DNA of 64,000 nucleotides from Pseudoxanthomonas sp. F37. GTDB lineage: Bacteria; Pseudomonadota; Gammaproteobacteria; Xanthomonadales; Xanthomonadaceae. Shown piece after piece: positions 8,255-52,917 of this stretch. The notes beneath the pieces are model-generated. The model was given only the letters and a program-made list of their open reading frames with translations. It made no database searches and was not told the DNA's origin. The DNA lies in the NCBI RefSeq assembly GCF_022965755.1, contig NZ_CP095187.1:1-64000 (forward strand), in the 5' to 3' direction. Position 1 is the first letter of the stretch, and every line of letters begins with the position of its first letter. The position numbers were made by a program, and so were the translations under genes.

Positions 8255-8276
8255 GCGTGCAAGATAGCAGAGGGGC

Positions 8277-8353
8277 AGGAGTGAGGGGAGAGGAGTGAGA
8301 AGTGAGAGGAGCCAGAGCCTTCGCTCACTTCTCACTCCTCTCCCCTCACTCCT
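8277..8353. repeat. GGARYGAG hairpin element, copy 1
   Basis: This is a perfect 30-bp inverted repeat: the purine-rich arm at 8277-8306 (AGGAGTGAG, GGGAG, AGGAGTGAG, AAGTGAG in order) and its exact complement at 8324-8353, with a 17-nt loop. It separates the acyltransferase and thioesterase genes. It is the first of six related elements in the window, built from GGAGTGAG/GGAACGAG units. Confidence 0.9.
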
Positions 8354-8363
8354 CTCCCTCCCA

Positions 8364-8786
8364 CTAGCTCCGCGGCACCACGGCCAGCGTCAACCGCGAC
8401 ACGCAGACCAGCTTGCCGTCGTCGTTCTCGATGCGGATCTCCCACAGCTGCGTGCTGCGGCCCACATGCAGCGCCCGCGCCGTGCCGGTGACCATGCCGC
8501 CGCGCATCGCGCGCACATGGTTGGCGTTGATCTCCAGGCCCACCACCATTTCCCGGGTCGTGTCCACGCACAGGTTGCCGGCCACGCTGCCCAGCGTCTC
8601 GGCCAGCGCCACCGAGGCGCCGCCGTGCAGGATGCCGTACGGCTGCACCGTGCGCGCATCCACCGGCATGGTGCCCCGCAGCCAGTCCTCGCCCGCCTCG
8701 CTGAAGACGATGCCCAGGTTCGACACCAGGGTGTCGGCCGCGTGGGCGTTGACGGCAGTCAGATCGACGGGGGCGCGGAAAGCCAT
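8364..8786 (-). CDS. PaaI/MenI-type hotdog thioesterase
   Basis: The 140-residue single hotdog-fold protein resembles acyl-CoA thioesterases of the PaaI / 1,4-dihydroxy-2-naphthoyl-CoA hydrolase group. The helix motif ILHGGASVALAETLGS (about 51-66) contains the HGG and the catalytic acidic residue (Glu in AETLG), and NANHVRAMRGG (about 87-97) is the matching strand block. The exact acyl-CoA substrate is not readable. The gene lies between two near-identical hairpin elements (8277-8353 and 8800-8881), with 10 and 13 bp separating it from them. Confidence 0.88.
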   Translation of the reverse strand: MAFRAPVDLTAVNAHAADTLVSNLGIVFSEAGEDWLRGTMPVDARTVQPYGILHGGASVALAETLGSVAGNLCVDTTREMVVGLEINANHVRAMRGGMVTGTARALHVGRSTQLWEIRIENDDGKLVCVSRLTLAVVPRS

Positions 8787-8799
8787 GGCGATTCTCGGG

Positions 8800-8881
8800 A
8801 GGAGTGAGTGGAGAGGAGTGAGGAGTGAGGGGGGCAGGAGCGCGAGTTTTACTCACTCCTCACTCCTCTCCACTCACTCCT
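8800..8881. repeat. GGARYGAG hairpin element, copy 2
   Basis: The purine arm at 8800-8829 and its exact 30-nt complement at 8852-8881 enclose a 22-nt loop. Compared with copy 1 the arm differs at two positions (TGG for GGG, GAG for AAG), and both arms carry the change, so pairing is preserved. It lies between the thioesterase start and the phospholipase D stop, 3 bp from the latter. Confidence 0.9.
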
Positions 8882-12562: not shown

Positions 12563-12623
12563 GCGCGCACCTCGTTGCCCGGGGAGCCCGCAGGGTACAC
12601 CGGGGGCGGTGAAGCAGAAAGCC

Positions 12624-12703
12624 AGGAACGAGAGGGGAGGAACGAGGAGTGAGTGGGGCGAGGCGCCTCCACACTCGTTCCTCGTTCCTCCCCCCTCGTT
12701 CCT
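12624..12703. repeat. GGARYGAG hairpin element, copy 3
   Basis: The purine arm at 12624-12655 and pyrimidine arm at 12672-12703 pair over 32 nt with three mismatches, two of which could be G-U pairs in RNA; the loop is 16 nt. Here the units are mostly GGAACGAG rather than GGAGTGAG. It lies between the divergent ParA-like and AAA ATPase genes, so it does not look like a simple terminator. Confidence 0.87.
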
Positions 12704-12739
12704 GCTGCTATCGTTCCGTCCCCACGGACCGGATGCCCC

Positions 12740-37846: not shown

Positions 37847-37913
37847 AGGAGTGAGGAGTGAGGAGTGAGGAAAAGCGCTTTCGCTCACTCCTCACTTCTC
37901 TTCGCTCGCTTCT
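37847..37913. repeat. GGARYGAG hairpin element, copy 4 (degenerate)
   Basis: The left arm (37847-37869) is three tandem units AGGAGTGAG/GAGTGAG; the right arm (37884-37913) is complementary only over its inner 12-18 nt and then diverges (CTTCGCTCGCTTCT). The loop contains the small palindrome AAAGCGCTTT. It sits between hglS and the nrdA control region. Confidence 0.75.
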
Positions 37914-38002: not shown

Positions 38003-38267
38003 GTCGGTTCCGGTGGCCGCAAGCCACGGGATTAAAACGGGAAGCCGGTGACGCGCTTGCGCCACTCCGGCACTGCCCCGCAGCGGTAATTGGGAACGAA
38101 CCCGCCACCAGCACTGGGGCCTTGCCCTGGGAAGCGGCGGACTAGGAGAGGCAGGAACGAGGGAATAGAAACGAGGAACGAGAGAAGCCGCAGTGCGCTT
38201 TGACTCGTTCCTCGTTTCTCTCCACTCGTTCCTCGCCCCAGGCCCATGAGTCCGAAGACCTGCCGAC
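38003..38267 (+). ncRNA. Cobalamin riboswitch upstream of nrdA
   Basis: The P1 stem pairs GTCGG (38003-38007) with CCGAC (38263-38267). Conserved internal segments are present in order: GGTGGCCGCAAGCCACGGG, AACGGGAAGCCGGTGACG, CACTGCCCCGCAGCGGTAA, TGGGAACGAACCCGCCACCA, CTGGGAAGCGGCGG, and the 3' B12 box AGTCCGAAGACCTGCCG. This is the AdoCbl-type aptamer. It would repress nrdAB when cobalamin is available, as known for class Ia reductase genes in Streptomyces. A repeat element (38153-38233) interrupts a variable peripheral region between the last two blocks. Confidence 0.92.
38153..38233. repeat. GGARYGAG hairpin element, copy 5, inside the riboswitch
   Basis: The purine arm at 38153-38182 (units AGGAACGAG, GAAACGAG, GAACGAG) and pyrimidine arm at 38204-38233 pair over 30 nt with about 4 mismatches; the loop is 21 nt. 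It lies between the conserved GGGAAGCGGCGG block and the B12 box, in a part of the aptamer that varies in length between species, so the hairpin could extend a peripheral helix without destroying the core. Confidence 0.88.
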
Positions 38268-38394
38268 AGCCGCGCGAAGCACAACGCGCGGTGCCGGCCG
38301 CGGAATCTCCGGGGGGAGAGGGCTGGCGAAGCAGGGCAGGCCGGCCTTCCGTCCGCGCGTCTTAGCCCCTGCGACGCCGCTTCCCCACTGTTGA

Positions 38395-38456
38395 CCTCCA
38401 TCCGGCCTTGCGCAGCCCCGCGAGGGACGGGCCGCCGCGTGCAACCCGCATGGAGG
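38395..38456 (+). promoter_or_regulatory. Possible Shine-Dalgarno sequestering hairpin of nrdA
   Basis: CCTCCAT (38395-38401) is the exact complement of ATGGAGG (38450-38456), which contains the nrdA ribosome site GGAGG seven bases before the GTG. Such a hairpin could be the expression platform of the riboswitch by hiding the ribosome site when cobalamin is bound. The 128 bp between aptamer and this hairpin hold no gene. Confidence 0.45.
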
Positions 38457-38462
38457 ACTCTC

Positions 38463-40892
38463 GTGACCCAGACCGACACCGCCCTCGCCGACGCCGGCAC
38501 GCTCCCGTCCCAGAAGGACGCGTTCTCGCTCACCCCGCCGCCCACCGCCACCGCCATGAGCGTGACCAAGCGCAACGGCAGCCGCGAACCGGTGGACCTC
38601 AACAAGATCGTGCGCGCGGTGCAGCGCAACTGCGAAGGCCTGCACGCCATCGACCCGATGCGCGTGGCCACCCGCACCATCTCCGGCCTGTACGACGGCG
38701 CCAGCACGCGCGAACTGGACGAACTGTCCATCCGCACCGCTGCCCTGCTGACCGGCGAAGAACCCGAATACAGCCGACTGGCCGCGCGCCTGCTGGCCGC
38801 CTACATCGCCAAGGAGGTCACCGGCCAGGAAATCCATGCGTTCTCGCAGTCGGTCACCCGCGGCCACGAGGTCGGCCTGATCAACGACCGCCTGCTGAAC
38901 TTCGTGCAGACCAATGCGCGCAAGCTCAACGATGCGCTGGACGCCTCGCTCGACCTGCACTTCGACTACTTCGGCCTGCGCACGCTGTACGACCGCTACC
39001 TGCTGCGCCATCCGCACACGCGCAAGGTGATCGAGACGCCGCAGCAGTTCTTCCTGCGCATCGCCTGCGCGCTGAGCGAGGACGTGCCCGAAGCGCTGGC
39101 GCTGTACCGCCGCATGGGCCACCTGGACTACCTGCCCAGCTCGCCGACGCTGTTCAACAGCGGCACCACGCACGAACAGCTGTCCTCGTGCTTCCTGCTG
39201 GACTCGCCGCAGGACACGCTGGAATCCATCTATGCCCGGTACGGCGACATCGCCCAGCTGAGCAAGTTCAGCGGCGGCATCGGCGTGAGCTACACCCGGG
39301 TGCGCTCGCGCGGCTCGCTGATCAAGTCCACCAACGGCCACAGCAACGGCATCGTGCCGTGGCTGAAGACGCTGGATTCGTCCGTCGCGGCGGTCAACCA
39401 GGGCGGCAAGCGCAAGGGCGCGGCCTGCGTGTACCTGGAAACCTGGCACGCCGACATCGAGGACTTCCTGGAGCTGCGCGACAACACCGGCGACGAAGCG
39501 CGCCGCACGCACAACCTCAACCTGGCCAACTGGGTGCCGGACCTGTTCATGAAGCGCGTGGAGGCCGACCAGGACTGGTCGCTGTTCGACCCGCGCGTGG
39601 TGCCGGAACTGACCGACCTGTACGGCGCCGCGTTCGAACTGGCGTACACGCAGGCGGAACTGCAGGGCAAGGCGGTCAGGACGATCTCCGCACGCAAGCT
39701 GTACGGAAGGATGATGCGCACGCTGGCCGAGACCGGCAACGGCTGGATGACGTTCAAGGACAAGTGCAACGCGGCCAGCAACCAGACCCTGCGTGCCGGC
39801 AACGTCATCCACCTGTCCAACCTGTGCACCGAGATCCTGGAGGTCACCTCGGCCGAGGAAACGGCGGTGTGCAACCTGGGCTCGATCAACCTGGCCCGCC
39901 ATTTCGACGAGGACGGTCATTTCGATTTCGACAAGCTGGCCGAAACCGTGCGCCTGGCCGTGCGCCAGCTGGATCGCGTGATCGACCTGAATTTCTATCC
40001 CATCGAGACCGCGCGCCGCGGCAACCTGCGCTGGCGCCCGGTGGGCCTGGGCTGCATGGGCCTGCAGGACGTGTTCTTCAAGCTGCGCCTGCCGTTCGAC
40101 AGCGCCGAAGCGCGCGTCCTGTCGACCAAGATCGCCGAAACCATCTACTTCCATGCGCTGGAAACCTCGGTGGAACTAGCGCAGGAACGTGGCCGCCATC
40201 CGTCTTTCGCCGACACGCGGGCGGCGAACGGCGATCTGCAATTCGATGCCTGGAACATCACGCCGGAAAACACCGAGCGCTGGGACGCCCTGCGCGCGCG
40301 CATCAGGGAGCACGGGCTGCGCAACTCGCTGCTGATCGCCATCGCGCCCACCGCGACCATCGCCTCCATCGCCGGTTGCTACGAGTGCGTGGAACCGCAG
40401 GTATCCAACCTGTTCAAGCGGGAGACGCTGTCCGGCGACTTCCTGCAGGTCAACCGCTACCTGGTGGACGAGCTGAAGAAGCTGGGCCTGTGGACGCCCG
40501 AGATCCGCGACGCCATCAAGCTGGCGGAGGGCTCCATCCAGGGCATCGCGCAGATCCCCGAGACCCTGCAGCAGGTCTACCGGACCGCGTGGGAGCTGCC
40601 GATGCGTTCGCTGATCGACATGGCCGCCGCCCGCGGCGCCTTCATCGACCAGTCGGCCTCGCTCAACCTGTTCATGGAAAGCCCCAACATCGGCGCCCTG
40701 TCGTCCATGTACATGTACGCATGGAAACAGGGCATCAAGACCACGTACTACCTGCGCTCGCGCCCGGCCACCCGCATCGCCAAGACCACGGTCAGCACGG
40801 CCACGGCCACCGCGCCCAAGCGCGAGTACACCCCGACCGAGGCCATCTCCTGCTCGCTGGAGAACCCGGAAGCGTGCGAGGCCTGCCAGTAG
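38463..40892 (+). CDS. nrdA: Ribonucleoside-diphosphate reductase class Ia, alpha subunit
   Basis: The 809-residue catalytic subunit starts at a GTG with GGAGG upstream (VTQTDTALADAG). An ATP-cone lies near the N-terminus (VTKRNGSREPVDLNKIV, about 32-48). Active-site Cys residues lie in LSSCFLLDSP (first redox Cys), SNLCTEILE (radical Cys) and CNLGSINLAR (second redox Cys), and the C-terminal swinging pair is CEACQ. It reduces NDPs to dNDPs with the NrdB tyrosyl-radical subunit, needs oxygen and does not need B12. That fits the cobalamin riboswitch upstream: a B12-dependent reductase probably exists elsewhere. Confidence 0.96.
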   Translation: MTQTDTALADAGTLPSQKDAFSLTPPPTATAMSVTKRNGSREPVDLNKIVRAVQRNCEGLHAIDPMRVATRTISGLYDGASTRELDELSIRTAALLTGEEPEYSRLAARLLAAYIAKEVTGQEIHAFSQSVTRGHEVGLINDRLLNFVQTNARKLNDALDASLDLHFDYFGLRTLYDRYLLRHPHTRKVIETPQQFFLRIACALSEDVPEALALYRRMGHLDYLPSSPTLFNSGTTHEQLSSCFLLDSPQDTLESIYARYGDIAQLSKFSGGIGVSYTRVRSRGSLIKSTNGHSNGIVPWLKTLDSSVAAVNQGGKRKGAACVYLETWHADIEDFLELRDNTGDEARRTHNLNLANWVPDLFMKRVEADQDWSLFDPRVVPELTDLYGAAFELAYTQAELQGKAVRTISARKLYGRMMRTLAETGNGWMTFKDKCNAASNQTLRAGNVIHLSNLCTEILEVTSAEETAVCNLGSINLARHFDEDGHFDFDKLAETVRLAVRQLDRVIDLNFYPIETARRGNLRWRPVGLGCMGLQDVFFKLRLPFDSAEARVLSTKIAETIYFHALETSVELAQERGRHPSFADTRAANGDLQFDAWNITPENTERWDALRARIREHGLRNSLLIAIAPTATIASIAGCYECVEPQVSNLFKRETLSGDFLQVNRYLVDELKKLGLWTPEIRDAIKLAEGSIQGIAQIPETLQQVYRTAWELPMRSLIDMAAARGAFIDQSASLNLFMESPNIGALSSMYMYAWKQGIKTTYYLRSRPATRIAKTTVSTATATAPKREYTPTEAISCSLENPEACEACQ

Positions 40893-40895
40893 GGC

Positions 40896-41440
40896 AGGAA
40901 CGAGCGGTGAGGAACGAGGAACGAGTGGCGGCGGCCGCACCTTACCTGCGGCCCGTTTCCCCGCTGGGGGCTCGCAGTTTCCGGCGCAGGACGGTCAGCA
41001 TGCGACTCACCTCGTCGATCAGACGGTATGCAGGCTGCAACGACTCGGCGGCCATCCAGCCCAGGCGTTCGCACAGGAGCAGTTGGGTGTGCAGTTCGGA
41101 CAGGGATCCCTGGGCGATGGCAAAGAATTGCGCCTTTTCCCTGCGGGACTCGCGCGACCATCCTTCCGCGACATTGCTGGGAACCGATATGGCGGCGCGG
41201 GTGATCTGCCCGCGGATGCCGAAACGCTCTTCCGGCGGAAGACCCGTTGCGCACCGGCATGCGGACTCCGCCAGCTCCATCGCTTTCATCCAGATCACAG
41301 CATCCCGGTAGTGCATCCCTGCCCCCCTTCGATCAACCCATCGTGGTCCCCACCGGATCACGACACCTATCAGGAAACACCTCATGTCACTGCCGGAAAA
41401 AGCCTCACCACTCGTTTCTCGTTCCTCCTCACTCGTTCCT
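40896..41440. mobile_element. Putative mobile element: GGAACGAG arms flanking a four-helix-bundle gene
   Basis: The left arm (40896-40928) begins 3 bp after the nrdA stop; the right arm (41408-41440) is its inverted copy with about 28 of 33 matching positions. Between them lie an antisense four-helix-bundle gene (40942-41316) and 91 bp holding that gene's upstream region and the nrdB ribosome site and first 8 codons. The arms belong to the same family as the hairpin-only copies at 8277, 8800, 12624, 37847 and 38153. No transposase is present. Reading both arms as ends of one element is an inference; they could be two separate half-copies. Confidence 0.55.
40942..41316 (-). CDS. Four-helix-bundle protein (23S rRNA IVP / S23 family)
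   Basis: The 124-residue all-helical protein starts MHYRDAVIWMKAMELAE. It has the family hallmarks RAAISVPSNVAEGWSRESR (about 43-61, the P-x-N-x-AEG turn) and AIAQGSLSELHTQLLL (about 69-84, the GSL-x-E-L/H-TxL helix). Relatives are encoded in intervening sequences of 23S rRNA genes and scattered elsewhere in genomes; biochemical function is not established, although related bundles (Avd) bind RNA/protein partners in retroelements. It lies antisense between nrdA and nrdB and is flanked by matching inverted arms. GGGGGGCAGGG upstream could serve as ribosome site. Confidence 0.88.
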   Translation of the reverse strand: MHYRDAVIWMKAMELAESACRCATGLPPEERFGIRGQITRAAISVPSNVAEGWSRESRREKAQFFAIAQGSLSELHTQLLLCERLGWMAAESLQPAYRLIDEVSRMLTVLRRKLRAPSGETGRR

Positions 41441-42439
41441 CGCCTCCTCGATCCAGGCTTCGAACTGACCCTGCGCCCGATGCGCTACCCGCAGTTCTAT
41501 GACATGTATCGCGACGCCATCAAGAACACGTGGACGGTGGAAGAGATCAACTTCCAGATCGACATCACCGACCTGCATGCGAAGATGACGCCGGCCGACC
41601 GCCACCTGATCCACCGGCTGGTCGCCTTCTTCGCCACCGGCGACTCCATCGTGTCGAACAACCTGGTGCTGAACCTGTACCAGCACCTCAACGCGCCCGA
41701 GGCGCGCATGTACCTGTCGCGCCAGTTGTATGAGGAAGCGCTGCACGTGCAGTTCTACCTGACCCTGCTGGACAACTACCTGCCCGACCCGGCCGAACGC
41801 TTCAAGGCCTTCGCCGCGGTGGAGAACATCCCGGCCATCAAGAAGAAGGCCGATTTCTGCTTCAAGTGGATCGACAGCATCCAGGACATGAAGCGGATCC
41901 AGACCCGCGACCAGCGCCGGCAGTTCCTGCTCAACCAGATCTGTTTCGCCGCCTGCATCGAGGGCCTGTTCTTCTTTGCCGCCTTCGCCTACGTGTACTA
42001 CTTCCGCTCGCGCGGCCTGCTGCCGGGCCTGGCGTCCGGTACCAACTGGGTGTTCCGCGACGAGAGCTGTCACATGGAGTTCGCCTTCGAATGCGTGCGC
42101 ACCGTGCGCGAGGAGGAGCCGGACCTGTTCGACGACGTCATGCAGCAGCAGGTCTACGACATGCTGGAGGAGGCCATCGAGTGCGAGGTGCAGTTCGCCG
42201 AGGACGTGCTGTCCGGCGGCGTGGCCGGCATCTCCACCCGCGACATGCGCCAGTACCTGCAGCACTGCGCCGACCAGCACTTCGCCAAGCTCGGCATGCC
42301 CAAGCGCTACGACGTGCGCAATCCGCTGCCCTTCATGGAACTGCAGGACGTGCAGGAGCTGACCAACTTCTTCGAACGCCGCGTGTCCGCCTACCAGCTG
42401 GGCGTGCAGGGCGAAGTCGGTTTCGACCACGCGTTCTAA
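41384..42439 (+). CDS. nrdB: Ribonucleoside-diphosphate reductase class Ia, beta subunit
   Basis: The 351-residue di-iron/tyrosyl-radical subunit has EEALHVQFY (about 120-128), giving the ExxH metal ligands and the radical Tyr (HxxxY), and RDESCHMEF (about 224-232), giving the second Glu/His pair. The start ATG at 41384 follows AGGAAACACCTC. Residues 9-19 (PLVSRSSSLVP) are exactly the translation of the 33-nt repeat arm; family-like sequence resumes at LLDPGFELTLRPMRYPQFY. The insertion is in frame and in a variable N-terminus, so function should be kept. It is separated from nrdA by an antisense gene, which is unusual for this pair. Confidence 0.95.
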   Translation: MSLPEKASPLVSRSSSLVPRLLDPGFELTLRPMRYPQFYDMYRDAIKNTWTVEEINFQIDITDLHAKMTPADRHLIHRLVAFFATGDSIVSNNLVLNLYQHLNAPEARMYLSRQLYEEALHVQFYLTLLDNYLPDPAERFKAFAAVENIPAIKKKADFCFKWIDSIQDMKRIQTRDQRRQFLLNQICFAACIEGLFFFAAFAYVYYFRSRGLLPGLASGTNWVFRDESCHMEFAFECVRTVREEEPDLFDDVMQQQVYDMLEEAIECEVQFAEDVLSGGVAGISTRDMRQYLQHCADQHFAKLGMPKRYDVRNPLPFMELQDVQELTNFFERRVSAYQLGVQGEVGFDHAF

Positions 42440-42451
42440 CGCCGGCCCCTG

Positions 42452-42597
42452 CAGGAGCGACGTGAGTCGCGACCGCGGCAATGGGACCTCATGTCGCTGC
42501 GCCACCCCTGGAATGTCGGCAGCAGGCACAGCGTCACAGGTGACCCATCGGGTATCCCGGATCATTCGTTCATGCGGTCGCGACTCACGTAGCTCCT
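42452..42597. repeat. REP-like element with 24-25 bp terminal inverted arms
   Basis: The arm AGGAGCGACGTGAGTCGCGA (starting 42453) is mirrored at 42574-42597 (GCGGTCGCGACTCACG then AGCTCCT), enclosing about 97 bp of unique-looking sequence. Each arm contains the palindromic core TCGCGA. It lies 13 bp after the nrdB stop and could affect its mRNA 3' end. A second element with the same arms is at 52800. Confidence 0.75.
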
Positions 42598-42658
42598 ACA
42601 CCAGCACGACATCCGGCGCGCTATGCTGCCGCCGGAAGCCCGCGACCGGAGCACCCGC

Positions 42659-52799: not shown

Positions 52800-52917
52800 T
52801 GTAGGAGCGACGTGAGTCGCGACCGGGCACCCTCAGGCAACGGGACGGCGGAATCCTTGAGATGAGCAAGCCGATGGACAGTGACGTCATGCGGTCGCGA
52901 CCTATGTCGCTCCTACA
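52800..52917. repeat. REP-like element with 26 bp terminal inverted arms
   Basis: TGTAGGAGCGACGTGAGTCG (from 52800) is mirrored by GCGGTCGCGACCTATGTCGC then TCCTACA (52891-52917). The arms are the same type as those at 42452. The internal 60-70 bp are not obviously related to that element's interior. It lies between ychJ and folE, both on the minus strand. Confidence 0.75.

Follow-up and report, generated by a model that had tools for sequence, protein, structure and literature searches.

Genes of the PF05635 family are known from the intervening sequences (IVSs) of 23S rRNA, where a terminal inverted repeat forms a long stem with the open reading frame (ORF) in its loop. The Coxiella IVS, as described in excerpts of PMC4990558, has a 28-bp stem, is excised by RNase III, and carries an S23 ORF preceded by tandem heptamers (GACAGAT); the same excerpts cite an old idea that the IVS ORF serves mobility. 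The protein XCC0516 is cited there and in excerpts of PMC3936711 as a ring of five four-helix bundles, and the latter report 18 IVP genes in cas loci.

Heptameric repeats and scattered inverted pairs have been described in other settings. Rehm et al. (2015; PMC4692102, in part) described heptameric G-rich repeats in Xanthomonas and Nostoc, with units such as GGGAATC; the Xanthomonas GGGNATC repeats are intergenic, preferentially have four units, form 70–75 inverted pairs and quadruplexes, and have unknown function. Those sections treat them as simple repeats that form quadruplexes and name no partner gene, and the terms "23S" and "helix bundle" are absent from the text of the paper. TAACTGA heptamers are reported from Beggiatoaceae and cyanobacteria in excerpts of PMC4679880. 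In REPIN/RAYT systems, one resident gene is flanked by repeats that are also scattered as inverted pairs, with a wording of their own for each gene lineage (PMC3116915, in part). Among the matches listed in the open-access literature, we found none that linked heptamer repeats to a four-helix-bundle (FHB) gene.

We analyzed 64,000 nucleotides of Pseudoxanthomonas sp. F37 (NZ_CP095187.1, positions 1 to 64,000), here called the window, together with related genomes. The results point to a widespread, little recognised bacterial genetic element: an FHB gene in a heptamer-armed hairpin, accompanied by scattered gene-less hairpins.

FHB Gene and Inverted Arms between nrdA and nrdB

The original prediction had placed an antisense FHB gene between nrdA and nrdB, enclosed by two 33-nt inverted arms complementary at about 28 of 33 positions. 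Both the gene and the arms were confirmed (Table 1). The 33-nt core is complementary at 29/33 positions, with a score of 21 by our inverted-repeat scoring, and a repeat search extended the arms to 40888–40928 and 41408–41448 (41 nt, 83% complementary). In a profile search, the enclosed ORF matched PF05635 (23S_rRNA_IVP) with E 1.7e-31 and scored above the cut-off of TIGR02436, "four helix bundle protein"; it matched NCBIfam DivGenRetAVD weakly, at 27.4 bits against a cut-off of 80. The gene itself likely starts at the ATG at 41316 (MHYRD..., 124 aa), a start chosen from the family alignment. Among solved structures, XCC0516 (2gsc, five chains) is closest to the FHB protein, with E 1e-22. In the predicted RNA fold of the element, the arms are paired (z = -5.4). 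Here and below, the names of flanking genes (nrdA, nrdB, accB, accC, and others) are ones that we take from reading the proteins, except where a record annotation is cited.

Table 1. Features of the gene-bearing element and of the gene-less hairpins in the window.
Feature	Position	Strand	Basis or description
Gene-less hairpin, GGAGTGA type	8270..8360		inverted-repeat search
Gene-less hairpin, GGAGTGA type	8800..8881		inverted-repeat search; arms complementary 30/30
Gene-less hairpin, GGAACGA type	12623..12704		pattern and repeat search
Gene-less hairpin, GGAGTGA type	about 37853..37900		arms as 37827-37862/37884-37919 and 37853-37876/37877-37900
Gene-less hairpin, GGAACGA type	38153..38233		pattern and repeat search; upstream of nrdA
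nrdA ORF	38391..40892	+	ORF list; ends just 5' of the left arm
Left arm	40896..40928	+	AGGAACG-AGCGGTG-AGGAACG-AGGAACG-AGTGG; tandem 7-mers, unit 2 degenerate; begins 3 nt past the nrdA stop
FHB gene (PF05635), 147-aa ORF	40942..41385	-	profile matches
Right arm, inverted	41408..41440	-	read in frame within the nrdB N-terminus (PLVSRSSSLVPR)
nrdB ORF	41384..42439	+	ORF list; start codon between the arms

Three features had been overlooked: the tandem heptamers in the arms, the position of the right arm inside the nrdB frame, and a second PF05635 gene with a different heptamer in the same genome (G000; 3.97 Mb, one contig). By our own reading, the second gene lies between accB and accC, and its arms are GGGAATC, not GGAACGA.

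The right arm lies downstream of the nrdB start codon, and the apparent native ribosome-binding site and start of nrdB are situated between the two arms, which is not expected from simple insertion into a gap. The element would thus have arrived with a start of its own, taken the place of the junction, or arisen stepwise. At nrdA–nrdB junctions, an FHB element was present in 6 of 30 loci, and genome G063 has one too; the nrdB frame is open across the right arm in all six FHB-bearing loci, with N-termini such as MSATAPLTPHSSPLTPRQMLLDPGF, versus MSAQPRQMLLDPGF in empty relatives. Co-conversion around the element was considered and rejected, as nucleotide identity between the G000 nrdB and its sisters stays roughly constant over the length of the gene, with no clear tract.

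The parallel with 23S rRNA IVSs drawn in the original prediction is strengthened by the heptamers that precede the Coxiella S23 ORF, and the stem is of similar length (PMC4990558, excerpts). However, the window element lies between two protein genes and not in a 23S rRNA gene, and was therefore not filed as an IVS. FHB elements also differ from IVSs in having scattered gene-less relatives and an arm wording that changes between lineages. From REPIN/RAYT systems they differ in enclosing a four-helix-bundle gene (PF05635 only) instead of a Y1/HUH transposase, and in having arms of tandem heptamers rather than REP palindromes.

Gene-less Hairpins in the Window

The arms were also said to occur five more times in the window without a gene, and five hairpins of the same build were indeed located (Table 1). 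Three of them (at 8270, 8800, and 37853) consist wholly or mostly of GGAGTGA instead of GGAACGA. The arm pattern has eight matches in the window versus 0.05 expected, a number seen in 0 of 100 shuffles, and in the whole genome it has 29 matches with at most one mismatch, compared with 0 for the reversed pattern. The loop sequences differ among the gene-less hairpins, unlike those of recent copies of a simple transposon. We rejected the idea that the hairpins at 8270 and 8800 are the ends of one larger element, since both are complete and an ORF on the reverse strand (8364–8786), thioesterase-like by our own reading, separates them. The window also contains REP-like palindromes with GTAGGAGC ends at 42450–42600 and 52800–52917 that are distinct from the heptamer hairpins; we take these to be of the kind found in RAYT systems.

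Heptamer Arms at FHB Loci in the Lysobacteraceae

The survey centered on the family Lysobacteraceae, where 126 of the 297 genomes searched had a PF05635 match. A genome scan that relied on one protein confirmed only two loci. With the corrected search, the FHB gene was located in 154 of 157 extracted loci, the other three being nrd junctions taken for comparison. We studied 152 FHB loci, nearly all from Lysobacteraceae, of which 151 are unique (one is a duplicate record). Arms were called when an inverted repeat across the gene scored at least 15. By this measure, 122 of the 151 unique loci have inverted arms, 115 of them 7-periodic, so that FHB genes of relatives are repeatedly bounded by arms, as had been anticipated; the 29 loci below the threshold count against the element reading. 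At 2000 random positions in two genomes, eight reached a score of 15 and one was also 7-periodic, and no shuffled-flank trial out of 3040 reached this score. When flanks of different FHB loci were paired, 12.5% of the pairs reached 15, reflecting shared heptamer wording, which also weighs against the element reading.

The arms match themselves at lag 7 (0.79) and lag 14 (0.80), compared with 0.17–0.36 at the other lags from 3 to 13, and have a median length of 4.1 heptads. Their heptamers include GGAACGA, GGAGTGA, GGAACTA, GGGAATC, GGGATTC, GTGATTC, GGGACTC, GGGACCG, AGAGGCC, AAACCTG, and TGAAATC, among others. The heptamer varies between elements, but the two arms of one element agree: the match between own arms exceeded the mean match to arms that other genomes have at that site for 65/72 accB–accC, 28/28 carA–carB, and 25/27 nrdA–nrdB loci (the last group counts the duplicate record twice). 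One 2.3-Mb genome (G034) has five FHB genes (L159, L175, L195, L197, and L207), four of them in clear inverted arms with differently worded repeats.

FHB Loci outside the Family

Among 30 Pseudomonadota loci outside Lysobacteraceae, 16 have heptamer arms and 14 fall below a score of 15. Arms were looked for at the Dehalococcoidia locus L033, and none were found there. Matches were also present in 22 plasmid records, of which 16 were examined (15 cyanobacterial and one from Gemmatimonadota). Inverted arms occur at 14 of these 16 loci, 13 of them with a lag-7 match of at least 0.69; on Gemmatirosa kalamazoonensis plasmid 1 (L488), the arms have a period of 8 (GGAGGGCA) and not 7. On Nostoc edaphicum CCNP1411 plasmid pNe_5 (L490, 258391–260732), TAGGGAG arms enclose an FHB gene in antisense orientation, with the annotated beta and alpha genes of ribonucleotide reductase on either side, an arrangement and junction like those of the window in another phylum.

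Site Groups and Empty Junctions

Grouped by both flanks, the loci fall into accB–accC (72), carA–carB (28), and nrdA–nrdB (26, or 27 with L210, which was put there by its known place) groups, with further groups of 7, 3, 3, and 2 loci and 11 singletons. Orientation is uniform inside every group. The FHB protein tree, built from few columns and with 63 of 146 inner branches open, has 1, 2, and 4 site changes for accBC, carAB, and nrdAB, respectively, compared with 51, 26, and 25 for shuffled labels; judged from this tree, FHB lineages follow the site. By sequence comparison, the FHB domain is under purifying selection, with median omega of 0.25, 0.13, and 0.31 on 731, 12, and 22 pairs, respectively. 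In genome G192, one place has a stop inside the domain; in-domain stops are unusable as a test because the domains came from stop-free segments.

The original prediction proposed to look for clean empty sites at orthologous nrdAB loci. Sites of this kind, as expected of a MITE or other transposon, were found at accB–accC; at nrdA–nrdB the comparison was not clean and the outcome ambiguous, with the nrdB start between the arms. In the window's genus, the accB–accC junction was read in 30 of 38 genomes. It is empty in 18, with 8–10 bp between the genes, and in 10 there is an insert of about 400–457 bp matching the FHB profile. The other two (G139 and G297) hold a gene-less GGGACCG hairpin, and their two genes are 140 and 144 bp apart. 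GGGACCG is the carAB-type heptamer, and G139 indeed has a carAB FHB gene with GGGACCG arms (L056). G297 has the hairpin, yet its carA and carB are 1 bp apart, with no insert and no carAB FHB gene, which speaks against strict dependence on the gene. Where G275 has a 99-bp hairpin (L481), G000 has 17 bp and G294 has 19 bp at the corresponding place, with flanks 77–82% alike. No target-site duplication was noticed at the borders read by eye. By eye, the accC start in L294–L323 is mostly ATGCTCGATAAA in FHB-bearing loci and mostly ATGCTGGACAAR in empty ones, a difference that may be explained by the FHB stop overlapping the accC start in several loci.

Scattered Repeats and the Resident FHB Gene

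The idea of a gene-bearing form with short gene-less derivatives is supported by the gene-less repeats, which share the wording of the resident FHB arms. AACG- or AGTG-type patterns were counted in 297 genomes. At least three hits were found in 15 of 23 genomes with a recorded nrdAB-FHB gene (13 of 23 when hits at the FHB locus are left out), compared with 18 of 274 genomes without one (Fisher 4.7e-11, a value that overstates independence since the genomes are related); these 18 count against the element reading. Five of the eight nrdAB-FHB misses have TAG-type arms (G099, G103, G278, G190, and G173), and all five have TAG-type repeats outside the FHB locus (6–73 hits), versus 0–2 hits in 15 genomes of the AACG/AGTG type. 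The remaining misses are G009 and G154 (weak arms) and G024 (a draft, 83% complete). In 19 genomes without a recorded nrdAB-FHB gene, TAG-type hits numbered 14 in G128, 3 in G117, 2 in G263, and 0 in the others.

For the carAB lineage, 19 of the 28 known genomes were picked because they have clean GGGACYS arms. All 19 contain GGGACYSx3 repeats, with 7–610 hits, 5–606 of them outside the FHB locus (overlapping hits within one array are counted separately), while the pattern is present in one of 11 genomes with FHB genes at other sites only (G153, three hits); the Fisher value of 3.7e-7 again overstates independence among related genomes. Within single genera, hits with and without a carAB-FHB gene were 86–610 versus 0, 3, and 0 (g7), 55–114 versus 0, 0, and 0 (g17), and 153 versus 0 and 0 (g1). 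AACG/AGTG hits were zero in 17 of 18 tested genomes that have a carAB-FHB gene and no recorded nrdAB-FHB gene, the other one (G205) having 12. Both kinds of repeats are present in G139, which carries both genes. The scattered repeats track the resident FHB lineage.

Reversed-pattern controls were zero for three counts (G000, AACG/AGTG, and TAG), and for the carAB count they were zero except in G224 (7). In one AACG/AGTG count, the control was nonzero in several repeat-rich genomes (for example, G063, 52; G139, 28; G255, 27), as the reversed pattern also arises within perfect tandem arrays. A wording-blind census of inverted repeats in samples of 400–464 kb replaced counts of non-inverted tandem heptamers, which are not comparable between periods. 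Arms in this census were 7-periodic in 6/29 repeats in G000, 1/12 in G386, 1/4 in G034, and 0/24 in G294, which has no FHB gene; one repeat (in G386) had another dominant period, of 8. The census heptamers in G386 and G034 are those of their own FHB arms, and those in G000 are GGAACGA and the variant GGAGTGA.

Interpretation and Alternatives

We consider it probable that these loci form an element family, in which the FHB gene lies in the loop of a hairpin with arms of about four heptamers, gene-less hairpins of the same heptamer occupy intergenic gaps, and the FHB protein acts in trans. Such a family would work like REPIN/RAYT systems, though built around a protein that has none of the known nuclease folds, and would be kin to 23S rRNA IVSs. 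The architecture and its breadth, the agreement between arms, the tracking of gene and repeats, and the empty and filled orthologous sites are observed directly, and from them we infer that the elements move. The Xanthomonas repeats of Rehm et al. are very likely the same DNA objects as the FHB-linked heptamer hairpins.

The strongest rival is a regulator with its regulon: the FHB protein would bind RNA or DNA, the scattered hairpins would be its sites near gene ends, its own arms would be autoregulatory, and sites would arise by slippage and selection without any unit moving. This would explain both the tracking of gene and repeats and the vertical inheritance at conserved operon junctions, and excerpts of PMC4692102 describe repeats that keep their places in two Xanthomonas genomes. 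It explains less easily a wholesale change of heptamer between relatives at tens to hundreds of sites, or gene-less hairpins at an accB–accC junction of 8–10 bp in relatives; furthermore, in the same excerpts, the authors report finding neither a regulatory role nor any functional bias among neighbor genes. We regard a regulon as rather unlikely. Formation of G-quadruplexes by four G-runs might instead be what maintains the heptamers, with an incidental FHB gene next to them, as might be thought from the Xanthomonas GGGNATC repeats, which preferentially have four units and fold into quadruplexes in vitro (PMC4692102, in part). However, many arms lack GGG (GGAACGA, as in the window, GGAGTGA, GTGATTC, TGAAATC, AAACCTG, and AGCTTTT) and still have about four units and inversion, and the repeats follow the FHB lineage. 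The quadruplex was rejected as the common property because so many heptamers lack GGG, and this explanation seems highly improbable.

Two further explanations invoke known enzymes. A reverse transcriptase could copy the hairpin RNA, with the FHB protein in the role that Avd, a distant relative, plays in diversity-generating retroelements. The weak DivGenRetAVD match hints at this, but the window protein falls below the Avd cut-off, and a profile search of G000 for RVT_1 (PF00078) was negative, as it was for 11 of the 14 genomes that bear repeats (RVT_1 is present in G255 and G157, and G274 is under the cut-off). While reverse transcriptases beyond the RVT_1 model, or past activity, are conceivable, we think retro-mobility very unlikely, and of the RNA intermediate proposed originally, the route through an RVT_1 reverse transcriptase is disfavored. 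Alternatively, a Y1/HUH (RAYT-like) or other host transposase might move the hairpins with the FHB gene as a passenger, and the REP-like palindromes in the window would suit such an enzyme. It is, however, the FHB gene that is found between matching arms in three phyla, and the arms have no fixed end motif in common; we give this possibility very little credence.

For the element family that we favor, the FHB protein would recognize its own heptamer arms, as RNA or as single-stranded hairpin DNA, and gene-less copies would depend on it in trans for their origin or persistence, by analogy with RAYT for REPINs. Cutting and joining of the hairpins would be done by host enzymes. By the route that we tentatively prefer, a hairpin DNA strand could be captured at replication or repair gaps rather than through reverse transcription. 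Insertions between co-transcribed genes might be tolerated if the hairpin or an RNase III cut spares the coding sequence, by analogy with IVS cleavage in 23S rRNA. Slippage and arm-to-arm correction could keep the arms alike while the heptamer drifts.

The original claim of a new type was partly right, since S23/IVP genes in IVS stems were already known, as were the inverted heptamer repeats of Xanthomonas. It is conceivable, with the balance slightly against it, that a separate class of mobile element exists, in which an FHB gene in the loop of a heptamer hairpin spreads gene-less hairpins in trans via a fast-changing heptamer, without itself encoding a transposase, integrase, or reverse transcriptase. 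The outposts of this class would be the IVSs of 23S rRNA, the Xanthomonas "quadruplex" repeats, cyanobacterial heptamers, and the FHB genes of cas loci. The element reading would tie together four points left unexplained in the papers considered: the role of the S23/IVP protein, the origin of 23S rRNA IVSs, the abundance of heptamers in Xanthomonas, and the occurrence of IVP genes at cas loci. Because repeat wording matches gene lineage, there is a direct handle on what the FHB protein recognizes, and because some genus-mates have the gene and others lack it, spread without an own transposase is testable.

FHB Genes in cas Loci and Junctions without FHB Genes

On two cyanobacterial plasmids (L491 and L496), the FHB gene lies between cas6 and cas4 in heptamer arms, and on a third (L498) between cas10/cmr2 and cmr3, with arms just below the threshold. 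Instead of Cas proteins, the IVP genes described from cas loci may represent inserted elements. The nrdA–nrdB and carA–carB junctions look like insertion hot spots. In genus-mates without an FHB gene, other insertions occur at nrdA–nrdB (L071, L083, and others) and carA–carB (L332–L353), consisting of small ORFs and long hairpins of the CCCTCTCCC...GGGAGAGGGG kind.
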